45,406 bases of DNA, taken from the IMG/VR virus record IMGVR_UViG_3300045131_000428, positions 1-45,406 of that record, one strand, 5' to 3'. A program made the translations under genes and the position numbers. Below the pieces are notes generated by a model. It saw nothing but the letters and a program-made list of their open reading frames with translations, searched no databases and had not been told where the DNA came from. Numbering within the stretch: position 1 is the stretch's first letter; each line of letters starts with the position of its first letter. This DNA is from a virus. Below are positions 20,824-36,540 of the stretch, piece after piece.

Positions 20824-21639
20824 ATGGATTATTATGAAATTTTAGGTGTTACTAAAACCGCCTCACAAGAGGATATCAAAGGGGCCTGGCGAAGATTGGC
20901 TAGTCAGCATCATCCCGATAAGGGAGGGGATAAAGTCAAATTTCAGGAAACACAAGCTGCGTATGAAACATTAAGTGATGCAAATAAACGCCAGCAATAT
21001 GATAATCCCATGCCACAAGGATTTCCGCAGCAAGGTGGAATACCCCCAGGGTTTGAACATATATTTGGTCAAATGTTTGGTCAAAATAATCCTTTTGACA
21101 TATTCAGTCAACAACGTAGACAACAACAACCTCAACAACAATTATTTAGAACAACAATAAATATATCATTAGAACAAGCATATAACGGCGGTGAACAAAT
21201 ATTAAAACTACAAACACCCACGAATGTACATGCCATAACCATTCAGATTCCTAAAGGGATTCAAAATGATAATCAAATGCGTATAGATAAAGTCATAGAT
21301 GGTGCTAGTTTAATAGTAGATTTTCGGGTTGAACCCCATCTCAAATATGATAGACAAGGTAATGATTTAATTTGCAACCATCCAATTTCCGTGTTAGATT
21401 TGATTATTGGCACAAGTTTTGAATTTGTTACTCTATCAGGAAAAACGCTGGATGTAACAATTAAACCTAAAACTCAACCCTATATTCAATTAAAATTAGC
21501 GGGACAAGGCATGCCTATACTAAATGCTACTAGCTACGGTGACCAAATTATATTGTTAAAAGCATTCATCCCTGATATAATAGGAGAACAAGTTATCAAT
21601 AGCATTACGGCTTATAAACAACAAAGGAATCAAGCATGA
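20824..21639 (+). CDS. DnaJ-like co-chaperone (CbpA type, no zinc finger)
   Basis: 271 aa. Canonical J domain (M-D-Y-Y-E-I-L-G-V at 1-9, H-P-D at 30-32, Y-E-T-L-S-D), then a G/F/Q-rich linker (about 66-108) and a two-lobe C-terminal substrate-binding region ending Y-G-D-Q-I-I-L-L-K-A. The Cys-rich zinc domain of type I DnaJ is absent. J proteins deliver clients to Hsp70 and stimulate its ATPase; no DnaK is in this window, so the host DnaK is the likely partner. The start is certain by homology, and it coincides with the predicted transcription start. It overlaps the ClpA-like gene by 4 nt. Confidence 0.9.
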   Translation: MDYYEILGVTKTASQEDIKGAWRRLASQHHPDKGGDKVKFQETQAAYETLSDANKRQQYDNPMPQGFPQQGGIPPGFEHIFGQMFGQNNPFDIFSQQRRQQQPQQQLFRTTINISLEQAYNGGEQILKLQTPTNVHAITIQIPKGIQNDNQMRIDKVIDGASLIVDFRVEPHLKYDRQGNDLICNHPISVLDLIIGTSFEFVTLSGKTLDVTIKPKTQPYIQLKLAGQGMPILNATSYGDQIILLKAFIPDIIGEQVINSITAYKQQRNQA

Positions 21640-23897
21640 ACCATTCACCCGAAATTGATAGCATTATTGAACAAGCGATTCATCATGCTAAAGAAAGAAA
21701 ACATCAATATGTAACCGTAGAACATTTACTTCTTGGTTTGATAAATCACAGTGCATTCAAAAAATGCTTGCATAGTTTTGGTGCAGATATTGAAACAATG
21801 GATCAAGAGATTAAGGCATACTTAGACAGTTTACATGCCATTGTAAGCAAAGAGGATGAAGTAGTACCTCGTAAAACAAATAGTTTAGAACGAGTTATGA
21901 ATCGTTCTGTAACACAAGTGTTATTCACCGGTCGTAGGCAAGTAACAACTATTGACTTGTATCTTAGCATTGCGGCAGAAGGGAATAGTCATGCTCATTA
22001 TTTCTTGTTGAAATACGGAATCAACAAAAATGAATTTGTAGCACATTGGCAGAAAAATTATAAGCACAACGAAGTGGGTAATCTCACCGAGAATCAAGCC
22101 GACGAAATTCTAGAAGAATATACCATCAACTTAACACAATTAGCGGCACAAGGTAAACTTGAACCAATGATTGGTCGCGGCAAAGAACTTGACGATATCA
22201 TTAATGTACTTGCTAAACGATTCAAGAGTAATGTATTGATGGTAGGTGACCCTGGGGTTGGTAAAACAGCAATCGCCGAAGGTCTAGCACAGATGATGAT
22301 CAACAAAGAAGTACCTGAATTCTTGCATGATCATCAAATATATAGCTTGGAGATTGGCTCATTGCTTGCAGGAAGTAAATATCGCGGGGACTTTGAAGAA
22401 AAAGTCAAAGCAGTACTGGATGCGTTAAACACAAAGAAAAAGACTATCCTTTTCATTGACGAGGCACATACTATGCAGGGTTCAGGGGGTTCATCTACTG
22501 GTTCAGTGGACTTCAGTAACATGATTAAACCCGCAATTACTAAAGGTACTCTTAAAGTTATTGCTAGCACAACTTGGGAAGAATACTACGAAAGTTTTGA
22601 AAAGGACCGTGCATTGATGCGTAGATTCTATCGTGTGTCAGTTGATGAACCTAATCACGACACAACTATTCGTATATTGAATGGATTAAGTGCTAGACTT
22701 AATGATTTTCACAATGTTGAAATTACAGATGAGGCAATCAAAGCAGCAGTTGAAAGTGCTGATCGGTATATTCATGACCGAAAGAACCCAGACAAATCTA
22801 TTGATTTACTTGATGCTGCTTGCGCTAAACAACGAGTAGCAGAGAACAAAGGGGCAATCATTACCAAAGACCTTGTATTTGATCAAGTTGAACGATTCAC
22901 CGGAGTCCCTGCTGACAAGATGAAGGGTGACAACTTTGATTTGATTCATAATTTAGAATCAAATATCAAGGACAAACTATATGGTCAAGATGAAACTGTA
23001 CAAAAAGTACTTGAACGAATTTATGTTAACTTTGCTGGTATTGGTAATGATAGTAAACCAACAGGTAGTTTCTTATTCTTAGGCCCTACTGGAACTGGTA
23101 AAACAGAATTTGCCAAACTACTTAGCAAGAACTTGGATATGCCGCTACTTAAGTATGACATGAGTGAGTATTCAGAGAAGCATAGTGTTTCAAGTTTGAT
23201 TGGACCTCCTCCGGGCTATGTTGGATTCGGTGATAGTCAAGTGTCGGGTGGTAGATTGATTAATGACTTGAGCAAGAACCCACATAGTATTATGCTATTT
23301 GATGAGGTTGAAAAAGCACATCCAGAAATCTTTAATATCTTTCTACAGATGTTAGATGAAGGGCATCTTACCGGTAGTAATGGCAAGCAAGTTAACTGTA
23401 AAAACAGTATTATCATTATGACTAGTAACTTGGGTTCTAGTGATAGCGAACGCAACAACATTGGATTTGGCACACAAGAAAAGACCGGTGAAGATGACAA
23501 AGCATTGAAAGAATTCTTCAAGCCTGAGTTCCGTAATCGTGTTGATTTGATTTGCAAGTTTAACAAGTTGGATACACTTGCTATTAAGAAGATTGTTATC
23601 AAGTTTACCGATGACTTGAAAAAGAGTTTGTTAGACAAACATGAAATTGTAATGAATCTAAGTGAGCCAGTGGTAGAATACTTAGCAGAGCAAGGATATG
23701 ATAAGAAAATGGGCGCACGACCATTAAGTCGTAAGATTGATGAATTGATTCGGGTACCTCTAAGTAAGAAAGTCTTGTTTGAGCGCATTAAATCTGCAAC
23801 AATCAATGTTGTAATGTCAGCCGGAGCAATTGATTTTGTAGTAACACACAAACTAACAGCAATGGTTGATGACAATGGATTAATTATTGTTAACTAA
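21636..23897 (+). CDS. ClpA-like AAA+ unfoldase with ClpP-docking loop
   Basis: 753 aa, close to ClpA length. Clp N domain (1-140, with V-T-V-E-H-L-L-L-G-L), first AAA+ module with Walker A G-D-P-G-V-G-K-T (204-211), second with G-P-T-G-T-G-K-T (483-490), then the F-x-P-E-F-R-N-R-x-D sensor segment and a C-terminal Clp domain (M-G-A-R-P-L-S-R). No ClpB-type middle coiled coil is evident. Residues 609-611 are I-G-F in the position where ClpA carries the I-G-L/F loop that docks on ClpP. It may therefore form a protease with host ClpP, since no clpP gene is seen here. Translationally coupled to DnaJ, which suggests a joint protein-remodelling role in early infection. Confidence 0.9.
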   Translation: MNHSPEIDSIIEQAIHHAKERKHQYVTVEHLLLGLINHSAFKKCLHSFGADIETMDQEIKAYLDSLHAIVSKEDEVVPRKTNSLERVMNRSVTQVLFTGRRQVTTIDLYLSIAAEGNSHAHYFLLKYGINKNEFVAHWQKNYKHNEVGNLTENQADEILEEYTINLTQLAAQGKLEPMIGRGKELDDIINVLAKRFKSNVLMVGDPGVGKTAIAEGLAQMMINKEVPEFLHDHQIYSLEIGSLLAGSKYRGDFEEKVKAVLDALNTKKKTILFIDEAHTMQGSGGSSTGSVDFSNMIKPAITKGTLKVIASTTWEEYYESFEKDRALMRRFYRVSVDEPNHDTTIRILNGLSARLNDFHNVEITDEAIKAAVESADRYIHDRKNPDKSIDLLDAACAKQRVAENKGAIITKDLVFDQVERFTGVPADKMKGDNFDLIHNLESNIKDKLYGQDETVQKVLERIYVNFAGIGNDSKPTGSFLFLGPTGTGKTEFAKLLSKNLDMPLLKYDMSEYSEKHSVSSLIGPPPGYVGFGDSQVSGGRLINDLSKNPHSIMLFDEVEKAHPEIFNIFLQMLDEGHLTGSNGKQVNCKNSIIIMTSNLGSSDSERNNIGFGTQEKTGEDDKALKEFFKPEFRNRVDLICKFNKLDTLAIKKIVIKFTDDLKKSLLDKHEIVMNLSEPVVEYLAEQGYDKKMGARPLSRKIDELIRVPLSKKVLFERIKSATINVVMSAGAIDFVVTHKLTAMVDDNGLIIVN

Positions 23898-25200: not shown

Positions 25201-25731
25201 ATGAGTACAGCACTTTTTAGAAAATATATTGATATGATAAATGAGGCACAAGAAGGTGGCCCTGCTGACATACAACAAATAGCAGCAGGTATGGAATTCT
25301 TACCTACACATAAGCAACCAAAACAATACAAATATGTAGATGGTGGTATGCCAGGTAAGATGCCAGCAATGACATATACTGTAGCAACACAACAAATGCC
25401 AGTTGTTACTATTACTAGTGATGGTAAAGAAACACAAAATGTTGCTGAACCAAATGATATAATTATGTCTGGCCCAAGCAGAGAAAATTATGTTGTTAAG
25501 TCAGCAAAATTTCCTAAATTATATCAAGGTAAACTAGGTGAAGTTGTTGTGCCCGAACAGGGTCCTAGAATGGTAGCATTGTATACTGGTCAACAACCAA
25601 TCACATTTACTGCGTCATGGGGTGAGCAAATGGTATTAAAGCCAGGGGATTACCTAGTCAAAGACGGTGATAACTACTATCGTATTGCTAAAGTAGAATA
25701 CGAACAAACATATAACCCACCGGGTAAATAA
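25201..25731 (+). CDS. Putative capsid-targeted protein of unknown function
   Basis: 176 aa. The N-terminus M-S-T-A-L-F-R-K-Y-I-D-M-I-N-E followed by A-Q fits a capsid-targeting leader with a prohead-protease site after Glu15. The C-terminal part (L-K-P-G-D-Y-L-V-K-D-G-D-N-Y-Y-R-I-A-K-V-E-Y-E-Q-T-Y) is a small beta module, recalling cupin-like or P-G-D-x-[LW] domains seen in other phage and bacterial proteins. No catalytic residues recognised. Stop and next start overlap (TAATG). Confidence 0.55.
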   Translation: MSTALFRKYIDMINEAQEGGPADIQQIAAGMEFLPTHKQPKQYKYVDGGMPGKMPAMTYTVATQQMPVVTITSDGKETQNVAEPNDIIMSGPSRENYVVKSAKFPKLYQGKLGEVVVPEQGPRMVALYTGQQPITFTASWGEQMVLKPGDYLVKDGDNYYRIAKVEYEQTYNPPGK

Positions 25732-28700
25732 TGAAAATCAGTGCCCTACTTGAAGGTCGTACACACCTAGACGAAGGTGGCAATCTATCTATTAACGGAA
25801 AAGAAGCACAGCATTTAGATTTAAAGGTAACTAAGCGTAGTTACATGGTTCCTAAATTAAATGAACTACTTTACGCAATTAATTCTGCTTATTTTAAAAT
25901 GTATAAGCAAGGATTATGGAGTAATGAACTCTTAACAAGTGGTAAGTTCTTAAGTGGAAGTTCATTGCATTTCTTTAATGTTAAGGGTATCTCTGATGAG
26001 GTATTTACAGAAAAGAAACCAACTGTTGGTGATATTGACACCATGGTTGACAAAACAAAAGAACCTAACTTACAACAATTCTTGACAGCATACACTAACA
26101 AACAAATAGGTGCTGCGACATTTTTAGGATTTCAAAGAGGCAATGAACAATTCTCTGGATTGTTTGAATTGCAAGACCCACCTGTTAAAGTACAGATTGA
26201 TTTTGAATTTGTAGAATTTGAAAAAGACAATCCAACTGATTGGGCTAGATTTAGTCATAGTAGCGCATGGGAGGATTTGCAAGCAGGAGTTAAAGGTGTA
26301 TTCCATAAATGGTTGATACAAGCATTTACAGCACTAACTCGCAAAGACTTCATATTACGAAAATTGGTTGGTAGAGGTAAATTAAGACAAGAACAAGATG
26401 TTCCTACCACAGATAACATGTATTCTTTTGCAGTATCTAGCAAAGAAGGTGGCGGACTACGAGCAAAGTATGAACCGGTATTAGATGATAATGGAAAACC
26501 GTTAGTTAGTAAAGGTTTACCTGTAATGCGGGAAGCACCTACATCAGGATATAATCAAGACATTGGACAAATCTTTTCAACGATTTTAGACCAACGATTA
26601 AATCCTAAACAAGCAAAAGCATTGCAAAAACAATTCTGGTCATTCACTGGCTTATTACAAGTAATGAATTCTTTGATGAGTCCTGAAGAAAAAGAACAAG
26701 TAATGCAGGGGTTCTTGCAAAAGACAATAGGGCCAGGTGCACAGGGTATGTACAAAAATAACCCTGATAAAGATATTGCAGAGAAAATGGTAGCGATCAA
26801 CACCTTACTAGACACATTAAAACTATCTAAGTCCGCTGAATTAGACCAACTACTTGCTGCATACCGTAAATCATTCAAATATACATCAGCTGGTGCTGAA
26901 GAAAAAGCAGGAGCTGATGCCGATGTTGTAAAATCAATGGCAAAGAATACATTAGCCGAAGCAGTTCCTAGCTATAAGCGTAAGGGTATTCAACATATAT
27001 ACAATCCTGGTTCATCTACTGAGATGAAGGATGCAGATTTTATCAATTTTTGTAAAGAGATAGCACAAGATGGTGGCAATTTTGCAAATGTTCCTATTAA
27101 CTTGAAAGTAGATGGTGCTGGCATAAGATTTGGCAGAACACAAAATGGTGAACCATTCTTTATGACTAGTAGAGTTGAAACTCCCATGACTAAAGCCAAC
27201 ATTGGTGATTTTGAGAAGTATGGAAGAAGTCAAGGTCAATCTGATGAGCAACTGACAAGAACACAAAATTATGATAAAGTATTAAGTATAATTGTTAATG
27301 CTAAATTTATGAAAGATATTCCACCTGATACAATTGTCAATGCTGAAATGTTATTCAATCCAATGGCACAACAAGATAGTGGTGGTTTTAAGTTTGTTAA
27401 CATCCCATATGATCCTAAGAAATTAGGTAAGGTAATGACTCTTGTTCCAATTACTGTTAAGCAATACAGTACGGGTGAACAAAGTCCTGATGCTGATGAG
27501 ATTAAAGAAGCATTAATTAAAGATAGCACCCCTGATATCAAAATGATTAATAATACATTGAGCCATAAAGGCATTGATGTTAGTAAAATTGTTAATCCTA
27601 TCGTAAAGAACTCAGCAGCATTATTGAATGCGGTGTCTCAGAGAGGGGATTCACCTGACAAACAAAAAGCAAAAGCAATATTATCTGCTGCAAGACAAGC
27701 ATTAAGCAAGGTGATTATTAACAGTCCTATACCAGGGAAAGATCAACTTGGTGATATGATTGAAGGTCTTGTTATTAATATGCCAAGCGGTACTCTTGCT
27801 AAAGTAACAAGTCCTGACATGCAGCAAAAGATGGCTGACAAACAAGCCATGAACAAGAAGCCAACTGAAGGTGGAAATCGCACAACCACCGCAGTAATCA
27901 CTTATGGTTCATTTGTGGGTCATAAAGGACATGAACAGTTAATTGATGAAACAATTGCTATAGCAAAACAAGTGGGTGGAGTACCATTCATATATGTAAG
28001 TCCAGTTGTTGGTCCAGATGATCCTATTCCACCAGCAGACAAAGTTAAAACATTGCAGAAGTTGTATCCACAATATGCAAACAACATTCAAGTTTGGGAT
28101 GCAGGCGGAACTGCAATGAAGAAGATTGAAAAAGAACTTGTTCTTCCGGCTAATAGTAAATACAATAAAATTATAGTTGTAGTAGGTGCGGATAGAAAAG
28201 ACAGTACAGAGTCGTGGTTAAATAGTTTAGAAAAGCGCATGAAAGATCCAGTTGCATTAGCCAAGTATGGTGGGACACAAAATCAAGTTGAATTTCAAAC
28301 AATTGGTACAGAGCGTGATCCTGAAAAAGGTGGAACTGGAATAAGTTTTACTCAATTGCGTGATATCTTAAAAAATCCTAATGCAAGTGAACAAGACAAA
28401 TTAAACGTTTGGATGCAGGCATTTGATTCACAAAAGCTAGGAGTAGCGTGGATAAAGCATTTAATGGATACTACTGCAAAATATTCAAACAATCAACCGC
28501 AAGCTATTAAAGAGTATATTAAAAAGATTAAGCCAATGCTTGAGTATGCTACTCCTATTCAGAAAGTTAAAATATACAATCAATTGTTAGAAGCAAAACA
28601 ACATCTAGATGAGATGGGTGCTACCATTGAACCTATAGAAGAAGAAGAGGTGATGGCTCATATGGCAAACGCCTTAATCAAAGGTGCACCTATTGCCAAA

Positions 28701-28796
28701 CTAAGAGCAGCAAGAGATCAAGAACGGATGAAAAAACGTGAACAAGATTATGGTCGTCCGCAAGCTCCTAAATTTGATTATCTAGACGAAAAATAA
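25731..28796 (+). CDS. Three-domain nucleotidyltransferase: pol-beta-like NTase, ATP-grasp-type ligase core, HIGH-family NTase
   Basis: 1021 aa. Domain 1 (about 40-390) has the pol-beta-type pattern S-G-S (75-77), D-I-D (101-103) and a third Asp at 157 (V-Q-I-D-F-E-F). Domain 2 (about 410-700) has covalent-nucleotidyltransferase (DNA/RNA ligase) motifs: K-V-D-G (459-462, candidate lysine adenylylation site), A-E-M-L-F (Glu539), E-G-L-V-I (678-682) and A-K-V (Lys691). Domain 3 (about 715-930) has H-K-G-H (731-734) and I-S-F-T-Q-L-R (871-877), the HxGH and ISxTxxR signatures of cytidylyltransferase/adenylyltransferase-like enzymes. A possible protease site L-A-E/A at 410 separates domains 1 and 2, and L-L-E/G at residue 8 resembles a capsid leader. 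Substrates unknown; tRNA or nucleic-acid-end repair, or NAD-type chemistry, are possible. Confidence 0.75.
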   Translation: MKISALLEGRTHLDEGGNLSINGKEAQHLDLKVTKRSYMVPKLNELLYAINSAYFKMYKQGLWSNELLTSGKFLSGSSLHFFNVKGISDEVFTEKKPTVGDIDTMVDKTKEPNLQQFLTAYTNKQIGAATFLGFQRGNEQFSGLFELQDPPVKVQIDFEFVEFEKDNPTDWARFSHSSAWEDLQAGVKGVFHKWLIQAFTALTRKDFILRKLVGRGKLRQEQDVPTTDNMYSFAVSSKEGGGLRAKYEPVLDDNGKPLVSKGLPVMREAPTSGYNQDIGQIFSTILDQRLNPKQAKALQKQFWSFTGLLQVMNSLMSPEEKEQVMQGFLQKTIGPGAQGMYKNNPDKDIAEKMVAINTLLDTLKLSKSAELDQLLAAYRKSFKYTSAGAEEKAGADADVVKSMAKNTLAEAVPSYKRKGIQHIYNPGSSTEMKDADFINFCKEIAQDGGNFANVPINLKVDGAGIRFGRTQNGEPFFMTSRVETPMTKANIGDFEKYGRSQGQSDEQLTRTQNYDKVLSIIVNAKFMKDIPPDTIVNAEMLFNPMAQQDSGGFKFVNIPYDPKKLGKVMTLVPITVKQYSTGEQSPDADEIKEALIKDSTPDIKMINNTLSHKGIDVSKIVNPIVKNSAALLNAVSQRGDSPDKQKAKAILSAARQALSKVIINSPIPGKDQLGDMIEGLVINMPSGTLAKVTSPDMQQKMADKQAMNKKPTEGGNRTTTAVITYGSFVGHKGHEQLIDETIAIAKQVGGVPFIYVSPVVGPDDPIPPADKVKTLQKLYPQYANNIQVWDAGGTAMKKIEKELVLPANSKYNKIIVVVGADRKDSTESWLNSLEKRMKDPVALAKYGGTQNQVEFQTIGTERDPEKGGTGISFTQLRDILKNPNASEQDKLNVWMQAFDSQKLGVAWIKHLMDTTAKYSNNQPQAIKEYIKKIKPMLEYATPIQKVKIYNQLLEAKQHLDEMGATIEPIEEEEVMAHMANALIKGAPIAKLRAARDQERMKKREQDYGRPQAPKFDYLDEK

Positions 28797-31198: not shown

Positions 31199-33568
31199 AT
31201 GAGATTTAATCAAATAGTAGAAAATACAACAGCAGGATCGGTTGCCACCGTAGCACAGCCTATGATGACTCAAACCCGCGAAAATACTAATGTTCGTGGA
31301 CTAAAACCAGTACAACAATTAATAAAGGGCAAATCTAAAAAGAAAGGTCCTTACGCTAATAGCATTGTAGAAAGCAAAGTCACTGAAGATGATCTTTCAG
31401 AACAAGACTTAATTGTTGTTCCTGGACAAGGCAGATTAAAAAGAACCGGATTTGTTAAACATGATTTAGATCAAGGTGAACATGAAGGCCACACATTAAA
31501 GAACAGTTTACACACTATCGCCCGTGCTGCCAGTGATTTAGACGAGAGATTATCTGTTCAATCTGAATTCCCAGAGTGGGTATCAGAGAAGATTGGCGCA
31601 GCAAAAAGCATGATGGTTAGTGTTATGGATTATCTAATCAGCAGCCAAGAGATGCAAGGTGTCGCGGAGGTTAGTGATGCTACTAAAGCAAGTTATTTAG
31701 AAAAAGCAAAAGCACAAGTTAAAGGACTTACCCCAGATGCTAAAAAAGGTGAATATAAAGACATTGCTCAACGCATGATTTCACGGAGAGAAAAAGGTAT
31801 CGATAGAGTAACACCAAAAGATGTGGAGGAAGGCTCCAAGTATCCTTGGTTAGATAATCCCAGAAAGAACCCCAACCCCAAACCAACAGAACCAGAGAAA
31901 GGTGTGTCAGAAGGCTCCAAGTATCCTTGGTTAGATAGTCCCAGAAAGAAACCAGAACCAGAGAAAGATGTGGCGGAAGGTTACGATCCCGGTGATAAGA
32001 TTACTTGGTATCACAGCAATCATTATCCTGAAATTGAAGGCACCATAGTTGGTTGGAAAGACGGGCATCTTATTGTTAAATCAGTTGATCCAAGCCCAAG
32101 AAACACCGAAAAGACTGTGGCAAAATATCGTGTTCCTAAAAATAATATTTTAAGTCATACAGAGCAAGGTGTGGCGGAAGGCTTTAATGAATCATTAGAT
32201 GATTTGAAATCAAAATATCAACATCACACTTACTTGTCAAGAACATATCTAAAGAGAGGTAACAAAGAAAAGGCTCAGCAGCATCACACTAAAGCATATG
32301 ATATCAATCAACAGATAATGAAGCATCCTGATTACGAATTAAAGTTCATTGACGATCCGCGGACAAATGATGCACTTGCAATGAAACATGATACAAGATT
32401 TAATGAGCAAGGTGTGGCGAAAGGCTCGAAAGGATTGAACGAGTTAGCACCACCTGAGCGTAAAGACGGTCAGGGAGATAGATTTTTCTTTCAGGAAGAC
32501 TTTGAAAGCGACGACGGAAAATACATTATTGAAATTTATGCCGTGGCCGACAGTAACTCCTATGCAGTGTCGTTTCATCGTGGAGATAAACAATATGTAA
32601 TGTATCCAATTGATGGACTTGATGCCGGTGATCTGTCAGAAGGTGCCGATCGGTATGTACAAGAAATTAAACAAAATGCGGCACACGGAAGTCAAAACGA
32701 TTTTATAGGATTTTCTAGTATGGATTTGGAAGACTTTATACCTCCGGAGCAAGGTGTGTCAGAAGGCCAGTTAGATGAATTGAATAGAGACACTGTTACT
32801 TCTTACTATGACAAAGCGGAGAAAGATCAAGATAAACAATTTACCACTATTGGTAAAGGTATAAGAGACAATGACCCAAAATCTGCAAATAAAGCAGGTC
32901 ATAAATTTTCAATGAGAAGTGTTGGATTGAATCGTGCAGAAAAACGGTTACAAGATAAAAATATAGCAGAAGGTGCTATGCCAGCATCAGTAATTCGTGT
33001 CAAAGAAAAAATTCGCCTGATGACCGATGCTGAAAAGAAAGAATACTTCAAAGGCAAGACCCAAGCGCAATTACAACAAATGGCTAGGAGACATGGCTAT
33101 GGTGAAAATAGCAAGGTGTACGCCAAGTATGCAACACAAGATGTAGCGGAAGGCTCCAAGTATCCTTGGTTAGATAGTCCCAGAAAGAAACCCAAACCAA
33201 CAGAACCAGAGAAAGATGTGGCGGAAGGCAGCTCTCCAAGTCCCTATATGTCAGACAAACAAGCTAACGCAGAGATGAAATTATGCCGTAAAGGATACAC
33301 ACCTTCCACCCGCTGGTCCAGATATCCAAATTTCGACAAGGACGAAATTGCTGATATTGGCGCCGGTGGTAAAGAATACAATGTAAAGACTGATGCTGCA
33401 TGGGATGCTGCTAAGAAAAAAGTTAGTGAAGGTGCCAAAGTAGATCGTATGGTTAGTCATATTGAAAAGAGTGAAGAAAAGGCAGGCAAGTCAAAGAAAG
33501 TCGCTAAGAACATTGCTTGGGCAACTGCTAACAAACGCGGCATGTTAGATAACAAGAATAAGAAATAA
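31199..33568 (+). CDS. Modular virion polyprotein-like protein with repeated V-A-E-G linkers
   Basis: 789 aa. Leader M-R-F-N-Q-I-V-E then N. Eleven internal [VIL]-x-E sites, at Glu157, 211, 238, 260, 327, 481, 522, 591, 651, 676 and 744, all but the first followed by Gly, are spaced between short domains and often preceded by E-Q-G or E-K-D; a twelfth has become V-A-K (408). Domains include a helical unit with H-D-L-D-Q-G-E-H-E-G-H-T-L-K-N-S (about 88-150), a beta unit with D-K-I-T-W-Y-H-S-N (about 264-320), a two-helix TPR-like unit (about 329-400), and a C-terminal basic unit G-A-K-V-D-R-M-V-S-H-I-E-K-S-E-E-K-A-G-K-S. Three S-K-Y-P-W-L-D copies act as short linkers. Likely an internal head protein cut into pieces by the prohead protease. 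Confidence 0.6.
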   Translation: MRFNQIVENTTAGSVATVAQPMMTQTRENTNVRGLKPVQQLIKGKSKKKGPYANSIVESKVTEDDLSEQDLIVVPGQGRLKRTGFVKHDLDQGEHEGHTLKNSLHTIARAASDLDERLSVQSEFPEWVSEKIGAAKSMMVSVMDYLISSQEMQGVAEVSDATKASYLEKAKAQVKGLTPDAKKGEYKDIAQRMISRREKGIDRVTPKDVEEGSKYPWLDNPRKNPNPKPTEPEKGVSEGSKYPWLDSPRKKPEPEKDVAEGYDPGDKITWYHSNHYPEIEGTIVGWKDGHLIVKSVDPSPRNTEKTVAKYRVPKNNILSHTEQGVAEGFNESLDDLKSKYQHHTYLSRTYLKRGNKEKAQQHHTKAYDINQQIMKHPDYELKFIDDPRTNDALAMKHDTRFNEQGVAKGSKGLNELAPPERKDGQGDRFFFQEDFESDDGKYIIEIYAVADSNSYAVSFHRGDKQYVMYPIDGLDAGDLSEGADRYVQEIKQNAAHGSQNDFIGFSSMDLEDFIPPEQGVSEGQLDELNRDTVTSYYDKAEKDQDKQFTTIGKGIRDNDPKSANKAGHKFSMRSVGLNRAEKRLQDKNIAEGAMPASVIRVKEKIRLMTDAEKKEYFKGKTQAQLQQMARRHGYGENSKVYAKYATQDVAEGSKYPWLDSPRKKPKPTEPEKDVAEGSSPSPYMSDKQANAEMKLCRKGYTPSTRWSRYPNFDKDEIADIGAGGKEYNVKTDAAWDAAKKKVSEGAKVDRMVSHIEKSEEKAGKSKKVAKNIAWATANKRGMLDNKNKK
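31829..33189 (+). repeat. Three copies of a 41-bp repeat encoding E-G-S-K-Y-P-W-L-D linkers
   Basis: Copies at 31829-31869, 31910-31950 and 33149-33189 differ by one base, sharing the core GGCTCCAAGTATCCTTGG. The second and third copies are also extended by a shared P-E-K-D-V-A-E-G coding segment. Such DNA identity among otherwise unrelated domains points to recent duplication or recombination-driven module shuffling. Confidence 0.88.
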
Positions 33569-33569
33569 T

Positions 33570-34721
33570 ATGAAACCATCAGATTTTTTAACAGAACTAT
33601 CTAACGAAAAGTTAGCACAATACAAAACTGCTGCCGCAGCCGATGCCAGTAAAGCAGATAAAGAAAAAGATTTTGCTCGTGGCAACAAGCGTTTTAGTGG
33701 CATTGTAAAAGCAACTAATAAACAATTTGCAAATGATGTTAAGAAAGAATCAGTTGGTATACCTTATCCAGGAACATATGAAGAAACAAATGATATGTTC
33801 AAAGGTTCCGGACAAAGACGCACTGGTACACTAACAACCGAACAAGGTGTGTCGGAGGACAAGTTAAATGAATTAGATATCTTTGCTCCAGTGACCACTT
33901 ATGTTAGATTAGCCAATGGCACATACGTTGCAGCCAGTTGGCGCCGCAACCAAAATTTATCTACTGCAAGTAACTCAGCATCATTTATTGACATAAAACC
34001 AGTGGCTCCTAATGTTGCTAAACAATTGGGATTAGATCAAAGACTAAATGATCCAGAAAAAAAATACACAGGTGCCGCAACGATTGCATCAGGTGGCCCT
34101 ATTCAATCAAGCGGTCCACTTGCTGATAGAACTATTAACGTAGTTGATATTAGCGATCCAAAGGCTGCTACAGACCTCGGTGTTCCTGATACACTCTTTG
34201 GAAAAATTGCTCAATGGGCGCAACAGCAAGGTCAAAAAGAACAAGGTGTGGCGGAGGAACAACATAGTTGCCCACACTGTAATGGACCAATGTTCAGTGA
34301 AATGATAATGAATGAAAAGAAAGATGCTTGCTACTATAAAGTAAAAAGCCGTTATAAAGTATGGCCAAGTGCCTATGCTAGCGGTGCATTAGTCAAATGT
34401 CGTAAAAAAGGTGCAAGTAATTGGGGTAATAGTAGTAAGAATGAAAGTTCTATACTAGAAGGCATAAATCAAACGGATGAAAGTTTACATGATTGGTTTA
34501 ATAAAGAAAAGTGGGTTCGCATGGATACCAAAGGTAATATCAAGGGTCCATGTGCAAGAGAGCCGGGAGAAGGTAAACCAAAATGTTTGCCTCAAAGTAA
34601 AGCACACAGTTTAGGTAAAAAGGGTCGTGCAAGTGCAGCAGCAAGAAAACGCAGAGAAGATCCCAATCCAGAGCGTAGTGGTAAAGCCATCAATGTCAAC
34701 ACAAAGAAAACTAAAGGATAA
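33570..34721 (+). CDS. Second modular virion protein with V-A-E/V-S-E linkers and basic Cys-containing C-terminus
   Basis: 383 aa. Leader M-K-P-S-D-F-L-T-E then L. Module 1 (about 10-60) is a lysine/alanine-rich helical unit with K-R-F-S-G-I-V-K-A-T. The site E-Q-G-V-S-E at 96 precedes module 2 (about 98-220), a beta-rich unit. E-Q-G-V-A-E at 229 precedes C-P-H-C (about 234-237) and K-K-D-A-C-Y-Y-K-V-K-S-R-Y-K-V-W-P-S-A-Y-A-S-G, then I-L-E/G at 297 and a very basic tail. The basic tail and Cys pairs could bind packaged DNA. Same architecture as the 31199 protein and only 1 nt from it; probably co-translated internal head proteins. Confidence 0.6.
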   Translation: MKPSDFLTELSNEKLAQYKTAAAADASKADKEKDFARGNKRFSGIVKATNKQFANDVKKESVGIPYPGTYEETNDMFKGSGQRRTGTLTTEQGVSEDKLNELDIFAPVTTYVRLANGTYVAASWRRNQNLSTASNSASFIDIKPVAPNVAKQLGLDQRLNDPEKKYTGAATIASGGPIQSSGPLADRTINVVDISDPKAATDLGVPDTLFGKIAQWAQQQGQKEQGVAEEQHSCPHCNGPMFSEMIMNEKKDACYYKVKSRYKVWPSAYASGALVKCRKKGASNWGNSSKNESSILEGINQTDESLHDWFNKEKWVRMDTKGNIKGPCAREPGEGKPKCLPQSKAHSLGKKGRASAAARKRREDPNPERSGKAINVNTKKTKG

Positions 34722-34723
34722 TA

Positions 34724-35164
34724 ATGTTATCAGATAACTTAAAAACACTATTGGGCAGTACATTTGTACTGTATACAAAAACTCACGGATTTCACTGGAA
34801 TATCGAAGGAAGCAATTTCCCGCAATATCATAAATTTTTAAATAAAATGTATGATGAAATCTATGGAACTATTGATACTATTGCCGAATATATCAGAACT
34901 TTAGGCAGTTATTCTCCAGGCAGCTTAGGCAGAATGCTTGAATTGAGTATCATTGAAGAACAACATAAAATTCCTCGTGCTGAATTAATGCTTGAAGAAC
35001 TACTAGTTGATTGTGAAAAAATGATTAAGTTAGTAACTGAATTATTTGACATTGCAACAGAAGAAAAAGCACAGGGAATTGCCAATTATCTAGCTGAACT
35101 ACAAGACTTATATGCCAAGAAAGCATGGATGATTCGTGCTACACTTAAAAAAGCCCGTGAGTAA
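34724..35164 (+). CDS. Dps/ferritin-like protein
   Basis: 146 aa, four-helix bundle pattern. Dps features: K-T-H-G-F-H-W-N-I-E-G near 19-29, then F-P-Q-Y-H-K-F-L-N-K-M-Y-D-E-I-Y and I-D-T-I-A-E-Y-I-R-T-L-G, which carry the His, Asp and Glu ligands used at the intersubunit ferroxidase site. Dps proteins store iron oxidised by H2O2 and can coat DNA. The N-terminus is very short, without the usual lysine-rich DNA-binding tail, so protection from oxidative stress is the simpler reading. It sits between two capsid-leader genes; whether it is packaged is open, as it lacks a leader itself. Confidence 0.82.
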   Translation: MLSDNLKTLLGSTFVLYTKTHGFHWNIEGSNFPQYHKFLNKMYDEIYGTIDTIAEYIRTLGSYSPGSLGRMLELSIIEEQHKIPRAELMLEELLVDCEKMIKLVTELFDIATEEKAQGIANYLAELQDLYAKKAWMIRATLKKARE

Positions 35165-36540
35165 TGAGAGCAATTGAATTTATTAATGAGACTGCCTCAT
35201 ATCAACCGCCCAAGTTATCAGTTGGTGATAAAATCCTCAAGGGTAAATTTAAGAATAGTCCAGCAGAGATTAAAGGCTTTACTAAAGACAAGCACAATCA
35301 ACCTGTACTAAAAACTAACAAAGGTGAAGTACAGTTATTCAAGCCTCGCATTAGTAAATTAATGAAGGAAGATGAACCAATCAAAATAAGCAACAACGAT
35401 GCCGCAAAGGCTTGGATTGAAAAGGTCTATCAAAAGTATCCAACTATCTTTAAAAATAATCATGTAATGATGTGGGGCGAAGGTGACACTCAGCAGCTTG
35501 CAATGTTTGAACTAACCCCAAGTTTCAGCAAACGAGGTGCAGTAGAAGTAAAATGGTTTCAAGCATATCCACTACGTCAAGGGGTCGGCTCACGCGCAAT
35601 GAAAGAATTGCAAGCCATGGCACAAGCAGATGGAATTGCACTAACATTGTTCCCTTGGCAACACGGTCAAGTAAGTCAAAGTAAACTAACAAAGTTCTAC
35701 AAGGGGCAAGGCTTCGCTCCTATACACAAGGGTAGTAAGAGCATGAAGTGGGATCCAGCAGTCGGCGAAGCAATGGATCAGGGTTCAAGATGGACCGGTG
35801 ATGAGCCATATAGACAATTAGTTGAACTAGATGATTTAGAAGAAGATTGGAAGAACTGGGTCGCTGGTGGTGCTATGGCATTGGGAGCATTAGGTGCTGC
35901 TAATCAATATAATTCTCCGGTAGAACCAGTTAGAACAGCTAAAATATCTAAAATAACTCAACCCGATGCTGCTCCTGAAGTACAAGTTAAAGCAGCAACA
36001 CCCGTAGTTAAAGCAGCATCTCCCACAGTAGATACACAAGCAGAAAATGTTTTATATCAAACTGCAAAAAAAGAAGGAATGAAGGGATCAGAATTAGCAC
36101 AATTTTTAGCTCAGACGAAACATGAAACTTGGAATTTTAGTAGGTTACAAGAAAAGCCACAACCAAAGGTAAAAGATTATTTTGCTAAAAAATACGATGT
36201 TAAACATTCACCCAGAACTGCTAAGATACTTGGTAATAAACAAGTGGGAGATGGTGCTAGATATCACGGCAGAGGATATATTCAATTGACCGGTCGTGAC
36301 AACTATCGTATGGCAGGTGACGCCTTGAAGATAAACTTACTCAAACAACCTGAACTTGCAGCAAGGCCTGACATAGCGTTAAAGGTAGCACTGTGGTATT
36401 GGAACACAAGAGTTAAACCGGGGATAAATAACTTTGATGATACTGCCGCAGTTACTAAGAAAATTAATTCTTCACTATCAGGATTAGAAGATAGACACGC
36501 AAACTTTATAGATTACAAGAAACGCATTAAATCAACATGA
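35164..36540 (+). CDS. GNAT-like acetyltransferase fused to GH19 lysozyme domain, with capsid-targeting-like leader
   Basis: 458 aa. Leader M-R-A-I-E-F-I-N-E then T-A, very close to the T4 internal-protein leader. Residues 15-70 form a small basic beta module (G-K-F-K-N-S-P-A-E-I-K-G-F ... L-F-K-P-R). Residues about 75-195 look GNAT-like: R-Q-G-V-G-S-R-A-M as the acetyl-CoA loop and L-T-K-F-Y-K-G-Q-G-F as the terminal motif. V-G-E/A at 202 is a candidate protease site. A short hydrophobic segment (about 230-245) leads to a GH19 domain (about 295-458) with T-K-H-E-T-W-N-F (candidate catalytic Glu) and H-G-R-G-Y-I-Q-L-T-G-R-D-N-Y. Possibly a packaged or virion-borne peptidoglycan hydrolase for DNA entry; the acetyltransferase target is unknown. 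Confidence 0.7.
   Translation: MRAIEFINETASYQPPKLSVGDKILKGKFKNSPAEIKGFTKDKHNQPVLKTNKGEVQLFKPRISKLMKEDEPIKISNNDAAKAWIEKVYQKYPTIFKNNHVMMWGEGDTQQLAMFELTPSFSKRGAVEVKWFQAYPLRQGVGSRAMKELQAMAQADGIALTLFPWQHGQVSQSKLTKFYKGQGFAPIHKGSKSMKWDPAVGEAMDQGSRWTGDEPYRQLVELDDLEEDWKNWVAGGAMALGALGAANQYNSPVEPVRTAKISKITQPDAAPEVQVKAATPVVKAASPTVDTQAENVLYQTAKKEGMKGSELAQFLAQTKHETWNFSRLQEKPQPKVKDYFAKKYDVKHSPRTAKILGNKQVGDGARYHGRGYIQLTGRDNYRMAGDALKINLLKQPELAARPDIALKVALWYWNTRVKPGINNFDDTAAVTKKINSSLSGLEDRHANFIDYKKRIKST

Follow-up and report, generated by a model that had tools for sequence, protein, structure and literature searches.

We analyzed two adjacent genes, encoding proteins of 789 and 383 amino acids, in a 45,406-nucleotide stretch of viral DNA (IMG/VR virus record IMGVR_UViG_3300045131_000428, positions 1 to 45,406; hereafter the window), and found that the short V-A-E-G linkers between their modules are written in a DNA sequence of about 20 bp, here called the seam, which is conserved at the DNA level and common to many phages. 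Cassettes running from seam to seam move between unrelated genes, with breakpoints at the seam edges. An initial annotation of the window had seen the linkers as protease sites of a phage polyprotein and overlooked this conservation of their DNA, which makes the linker a recombination seam besides a peptide. We consider it probable that such genes encode head-targeted cargo polyproteins of T4-like phages, in which the DNA of the cut site doubles as the seam for cassette exchange.

A seam of about 20 bp conserved as DNA

Scans with a fully degenerate EQGVAEG pattern recovered seam genes at no fewer than 330 loci of viral contigs, leaving 310 genes with 801 seams once near-duplicates were removed. 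These loci were gathered via the motif or via one protein and their frequencies do not describe all phages; the contigs come from metagenomes, not all start codons are certain, and the sequences are related, so that pair counts are not independent. The seam reads (G/A/C)AG-CAA-GGT-GTG-GCG-GAA-GG (19-bp consensus, AGCAAGGTGTGGCGGAAGG). The consensus contains no palindrome, and a single chain can hold as many as 11 seams. Its conservation is sharply bounded on both sides (~0.1 bit of information just outside), and 345 of 346 copies lie in one frame on the coding strand, with almost none outside genes. Evaluating codon use in 232 copies selected on their amino acids, whatever the synonymous codons, we found Val to be GTG in 89% (21% in the same genes), Ala to be GCG in 90% (10%) and Gly to be GGT in 93% (48%). 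Between homologous cassettes whose synonymous-codon identity is down to 0.36-0.55, the seam codons are still ~0.9 identical, a figure inflated somewhat by the definition of seams at three mismatches or fewer; the copies defined by amino acids nevertheless have the same codon bias. A scaffold protein that is likely a substrate of the same protease never uses GTG-GCG-GAA in its V/I-A/S-E triplets, so the peptide alone does not demand the seam codons.

Seam versus gene codon use, the scaffold triplets and the saturated cassettes together reject codon bias as the source of the conservation, and recent whole-gene common descent is rejected as well, since seams stay alike though the cassettes are saturated. 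The exact 20-mer turned up 3 times in 257 Gb of genome sequence from bacteria and archaea, which is about chance and counters a host or bacterial origin. Phage isolates gave no seam match beyond chance by DNA and no match to the 789-aa protein, and a search of the papers available to us returned neither a description of such a system nor the string EQGVAEG.

Within the window, the initial annotation had listed eleven [VIL]xE sites in the 789-aa protein, ten of them followed by Gly, and a twelfth degenerated to V-A-K. All are found as described (the V-A-K at residue 408), the eleven being a selection from 22 such triplets. Against 5000 residue shuffles per protein, [VIL]xEG occurs 10 times in the 789-aa protein (shuffle mean 0.66, maximum 5), the stereotyped context [QKDN][GD]V[AS]E 7 times (mean 0.02) and any [VIL]xE 22 times (mean 9.1, maximum 21), which rules out chance motif density; the 383-aa protein exceeds its shuffles significantly in the full context (2 against 0.009) but not in the bare triplet. 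The DNA divides the listed sites by mismatches to the consensus into true seams (0-3), decayed seams (4-5) and plain [VIL]xEG (7-11), so that they are not of one kind. Glu481, Glu591 and Glu744 of the 789-aa protein and Glu297 of the 383-aa protein belong to the last class, with no DNA seam. The 383-aa sites at Glu96, Glu229 and Glu297 had been correctly placed; by their DNA they differ, Glu96 being decayed and Glu297 seamless (Table 1). At three mismatches or fewer the window holds 7 seams, against 0 for the reversed control pattern.

Seam-bounded cassettes and their exchange between genes

Cutting the proteins at their seams yielded 1082 modules of at least 25 residues (internal median 80 residues). 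Of the 173 module clusters that have at least two members, 155 show differing neighbours, and one internal module occurs 8 times with 8 different left and 8 different right neighbours; the largest cluster arose by chaining of unlike modules and is not one family. BLAST match ends fall at outer seam edges in 30-33% of cases versus 5% at random, and among matches of 88% identity or higher, 86 of 199 begin and end at seam edges in each of the two genes (2.3% expected per end). Three loci (L022, L109 and L237) have in common a cassette of ~400 bp at 99.3-99.8% identity; on either side the sequences become unrelated at the seam. The proposal that modules are shuffled between linkers is thus confirmed by near-identical cassettes running seam to seam in unrelated genes, and comparison of homologues agrees, with relatives of the 789-aa protein keeping residues 1-153 and the C-terminus and differing in the cassettes between. 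Copies of the SKYPWLD module in the window are themselves a duplication across seams (Table 1).

Match ends that do not fall at a seam are likewise close to [VILMF]xE (53% and 44% versus 20% for random points), a pattern predicted for ageing seams that lose their DNA sequence while the cut site persists. Assembly chimeras are unlikely as a general cause, because the window arrangement was recovered at 100% in further assemblies, 2 of which span the full gene; the seam is also shorter than usual assembly words, which likewise makes chimeras unlikely.

Among cultured relatives, cyanophages S-SM1 and S-SSM5 carry the last two modules of the 383-aa protein in one protein, with their order reversed and with VLE↓G / IQE↓G and VSE↓G / INE↓G in front of them (the arrow marks the candidate cut). 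Our search of phage isolate DNA found no DNA seam in either.

Candidate cut sites, head targeting and export signals

T4 gp21, the prohead protease, cleaves after L/I-x-E (PMC9026906). We evaluated how the seam drifts across 894 copies, and found 9 replacements versus 65 silent changes at the P1 Glu (single mutations give 7:1), Met, Leu or Ile in 50 of 51 replacements at P3, and free drift of the P5 Gln (185:14 replacement to silent). This pattern, the strongest of the sequence tests, argues that selection holds only the hydrophobic P3 and the P1 Glu. The hydrophobic-x-Glu of a gp21-type substrate is thereby kept by selection, P3 being Val where T4 has L/I. Each of 13 related contigs with gp23 (PF07068) also encodes a gp21-like protease (PF03420, Peptidase_S77), and a scaffold protein with ~14 [VIL]xE lies beside the gp23 and gp21-family genes in those neighbourhoods that were read. 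In all 11 distinct capsid-protein N-termini, L-x-E↓[SNTA] immediately precedes the conserved mature region, a place matched to the T4 cleavage by position, without alignment. Contigs of up to 262 kb lack both gp21 and gp23; the seam-bearing one of 262 kb (L188, G015), with neither PF07068 nor PF03420, is incomplete or belongs to a phage whose head is of another type. Pfam showed no protease domain in the seam proteins examined with it.

T4 internal proteins are targeted by propeptides of 10-19 residues, and processing of IPIII is stopped by an aspartyl residue at propeptide position 10 (PMC9026906). The 789-aa protein begins MRFNQIVE↓NTTAG, like a capsid-targeting propeptide, and N-termini of this type occur in 156 of 213 seam genes versus 720 of 1572 controls (p = 3e-14). 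As a separate observation, an N-terminal stretch of the 789-aa family (TTAGSVATVAQP, 31199-31270) resembles the region after a presumed gp23-type capsid cleavage site (TTTAGNIATLNRV, L366 1276-2535); the gene next to that gp23 (L366 2626-3399) has a by-eye likeness to an HNH homing endonuclease. A recurrent N-terminal module with no targeting-like start (L069 3833-6214 and relatives) matches phrog_13484, annotated as a virion structural protein.

Twin-arginine (Tat) signals were found inside seam proteins in 12 distinct cases, 11 of which start 0-2 residues after [VIL]xE (P ~2e-13), most commonly in the context VAEG-SLEE↓[VI]DRRGFLKGxGAAA; one such leader, taken from a cassette, reads DRRGFLKGLGAAAVAG... 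Tat signals act at an N-terminus, so the buried position makes sense if the chain is cut there. A single cassette of locus L270 (3-3047, - strand) runs from seam to Tat signal to TonB/TolA C-terminal domain to seam, the signal scoring above the cut-off of NCBIfam TAT_signal_seq, and its product may work in the periplasm of the host. Another leader-like family (GWK...AGAALAGAMALGA) stands directly behind [VILM]xE in 17 of 26 segments under a loose pattern; we infer that these leaders, including that of the 458-aa gene of the window, could be secretion signals.

Structure and domain content were evaluated alongside. The 383-aa protein comprises modules at residues 97-228 (folded core ~97-223), 230-297 (CPHC...NEKKDACYYKVKSRY) and ~301-380 (LHDWF...KAINV), and its model shows a confident domain at ~97-223 flanked by stretches of low confidence, with Glu96 and Glu229 inside or next to them. 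These two placements are compatible with cut sites in linkers, and the mostly low-confidence 789-aa model does not contradict that expectation. Full fragment alignments were poor for modelling because the modules are shuffled, and smaller sets (A3, A4) were used. A fold search with the 383-aa model gave no match at E <= 0.001, and neither did Pfam and PHROGs searches with the 789-aa protein give any match. Some seam chains contain nucleotidyltransferase, GIY-YIG, GNAT or TonB/TolA-C domains, and several seam genes begin with a domain that looks cytidyltransferase-like by eye. T4-GC190, a protein of the cytidylyltransferase family, is present in purified S-SM1 virions (PMC3037559); the cytidyltransferase-like region in the window may be likened to it by family only.

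Neighbouring genes of the window are included in Table 1, where the features of the 458-aa gene suggest a GH19 lysozyme cut from a precursor. A small gene between the cargo genes (34724-35164) has a by-eye likeness to a Dps/ferritin-type protein, and 21636-23897 encodes a large Clp-type ATP-dependent protease (phrog_4871, E 3e-235).

Table 1. Genes, seams and repeated modules of the window (mismatches are to the seam consensus; Glu numbers give P1, in the 789-aa protein unless stated)
Feature	Position	Strand	Detail
789-aa modular open reading frame (ORF), candidate polyprotein	31199-33568	+	ORF and motif check
383-aa modular ORF	33570-34721	+	N-terminus MKPSDFLTE↓L
Decayed seam MQGVAE↓V	31653-31671	+	Glu157, 4 mismatches
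Decayed seam KDVEE↓G	31815-31833	+	Glu211, 5 mismatches
Seam EKGVSE↓G	31896-31914	+	Glu238, 3 mismatches
Seam EKDVAE↓G	31962-31980	+	Glu260, 2 mismatches
Seam EQGVAE↓G	32163-32181	+	Glu327, exact consensus
Seam DNA, Glu to Lys (VAK408)	32406-32424	+	1 mismatch, predicted uncut
Seam EQGVSE↓G	32748-32766	+	Glu522, 2 mismatches
Decayed seam TQDVAE↓G	33135-33153	+	Glu651, 4 mismatches
Seam EKDVAE↓G	33210-33228	+	Glu676, 2 mismatches
Decayed seam EQGVSE↓D	33841-33859	+	Glu96 of 383-aa protein, 4 mismatches
Seam EQGVAE↓E	34240-34258	+	Glu229 of 383-aa protein, 3 mismatches
Paired SKYPWLDxPRKxP modules between seams	31812-31971	+	Direct repeat family D2; third copy 33132-33210
458-aa neighbour of like design, MRAIEFINE↓T	35164-36540	+	...LDDLEE↓DWKNWVAGGAMALGALGAANQ (signal-like leader), GH19 lysozyme/chitinase domain
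1021-aa protein	25731-28796	+	Targeting-like N-terminus MKISALLE↓G, cytidyltransferase-family region

Alternative explanations and relation to known systems

Under the cargo-polyprotein explanation, an N-terminal propeptide (MRFNQIVE, MKPSDFLTE) would bring the chain into the prohead core, where the gp21-like protease would cut after hydrophobic-x-Glu at the V-A-E linkers and related L-x-E sites. The cuts would free mini-effectors of ~50-180 residues, which would enter the host together with the DNA on ejection, and a Tat or leader-like signal exposed by a cut would send some of them to the host envelope. Recombination at seams would swap whole seam-module-seam cassettes between genes and phages with the frame kept, and a new module would be released automatically, since the seam spells the cut site. 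Exchange and DNA conservation in this scheme are observed, and we infer cleavage, packaging and ejection from sequence; the release by a T4-type prohead protease first proposed for these genes is supported by several independent lines. Several points weigh against it. Short targeting-like N-termini have a high background (46% of other genes), and P3 of the seam is Val where the T4 gp21 site is described as L/I-x-E (PMC9026906) and the local capsid sites have Leu. The window contig, a fragment, has no recognised gp23 or gp21, the protease being taken from relatives with orthologous genes. The 789-aa model has a mean predicted local distance difference test score (pLDDT) of 41, too poor to prove that all sites lie in linkers, and sparse alignments may lower such values no less than disorder. 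For most modules no function can be recognised, and for these uncultured phages virion presence and cutting are read from the genes.

A tentative elaboration, compatible with cleavage, is that the seam is the target of a dedicated enzyme (a site-specific recombinase or homing-type endonuclease) and not simply homology for general phage recombination. The sharp 20-bp edges, the rigid consensus including silent positions, the breakpoints at the edges and the GIY-YIG domain in one seam protein all fit such an enzyme. None was found tracking the seam, though none was systematically sought; the sites are all in direct orientation with the gene and almost none lie outside genes, and annealing at short homology would likewise keep seams alike. 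We regard as possible, though doubtful, the full form of this idea, a dedicated in-gene cassette system in which a phage enzyme reads the 20-bp seam and assembles effector polyproteins from a common pool, the same 20 bp being the prohead-protease site and some modules being Tat-exported.

We think it unlikely that the chains remain uncut as beads on a string, one long multidomain protein in which the seam is a recombination anchor and flexible linker. Conservation at the DNA level and cassette exchange need no cleavage, and the Val at P3 beside the Leu of capsid sites would suit an uncut chain; against this, selection holds the hydrophobic P3 and P1 Glu as P5 drifts, buried Tat signals begin right behind the sites, and match ends off the DNA seam still fall at [VIL]xE. 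Less likely again is cutting outside the head, whether by a protease of the host, by a different protease of the phage or by the chain itself after synthesis. The link between the cut and gp21 consists of sequence features, and the window does encode a member of the Clp-like ATP-dependent protease family, but the motif of gp21 is hydrophobic-x-Glu (PMC9026906), all 13 contigs with gp23 also have a gp21-like protease, targeting-like N-termini are enriched and Pfam gave no protease domain in the seam proteins examined. An incidentally translated selfish repeat resembling the Rickettsia palindromic element would account for the high copy number and DNA-level conservation, but we reject it as scarcely credible on frame (one in 345 of 346 copies), strand, location (almost no copies between genes), edges that coincide with module exchange borders, the lack of a palindrome and protein-level selection at P1 and P3.

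Integron cassettes, shufflons and Borrelia vls are likewise bounded by short conserved sites, those of vls and shufflons lying in frame within a gene. The seam resembles integron and shufflon sites in being a short conserved border with breakpoints, and differs in that its sites are all direct (345 of 346 copies on the same strand and in the same frame, with no shufflon-type inversion), are spread across hundreds of genes and phages, and encode a protease-type motif; we know of no recombinase for seam cassettes, unlike integron and shufflon systems. In Rhs/CdiA polymorphic toxins a cleavage or border motif marks the exchange of one variable C-terminal module, against up to 11 seams per chain here. 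To our knowledge, no system has one short in-frame DNA sequence that serves a common pool of cargo cassettes both as exchange seam and as protease site.

The internal head proteins of T4 (IPI-III and Alt; PMC9026906) are alike in the gp21-like protease and the variable cargo, and their short propeptide ending in hydrophobic-x-Glu has a putative counterpart here; they are unlike in that they lose a propeptide (Alt also one at its C-terminus), whereas here many candidate sites conserved as DNA lie between exchangeable modules. Polyvalent proteins (PMC5512222) are long and multidomain, thought to be injected as effector sets and subject to rapid domain turnover, a design that the putative cargo chains may share; no conserved DNA seam or repeated prohead-protease linker turned up in the passages of that paper that were searched. 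Phage domain mosaicism (PMC10684548) also involves protein fragments still shuffled among phages, but in tail and other proteins and by common domains, whereas the borders here are fixed by one short sequence. Parts of the arrangement thus have precedents in T4 internal proteins, polyvalent proteins and cassette systems, and the combination would be new if cleavage is confirmed.

Should a dedicated enzyme prove to act here, one sequence would be under DNA-level and protein-level selection for two enzymes. Under the cargo-polyprotein explanation itself, the virus would be able to take any foreign domain in frame and free it as a separate protein, which would explain the continual turnover of effectors in large phages. 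The seam, a short string that can be searched for, marks module borders, so that hundreds of unknown phage proteins can be divided into exchangeable effector domains, and the buried export signals suggest phage-delivered proteins that use the Tat system of the host.

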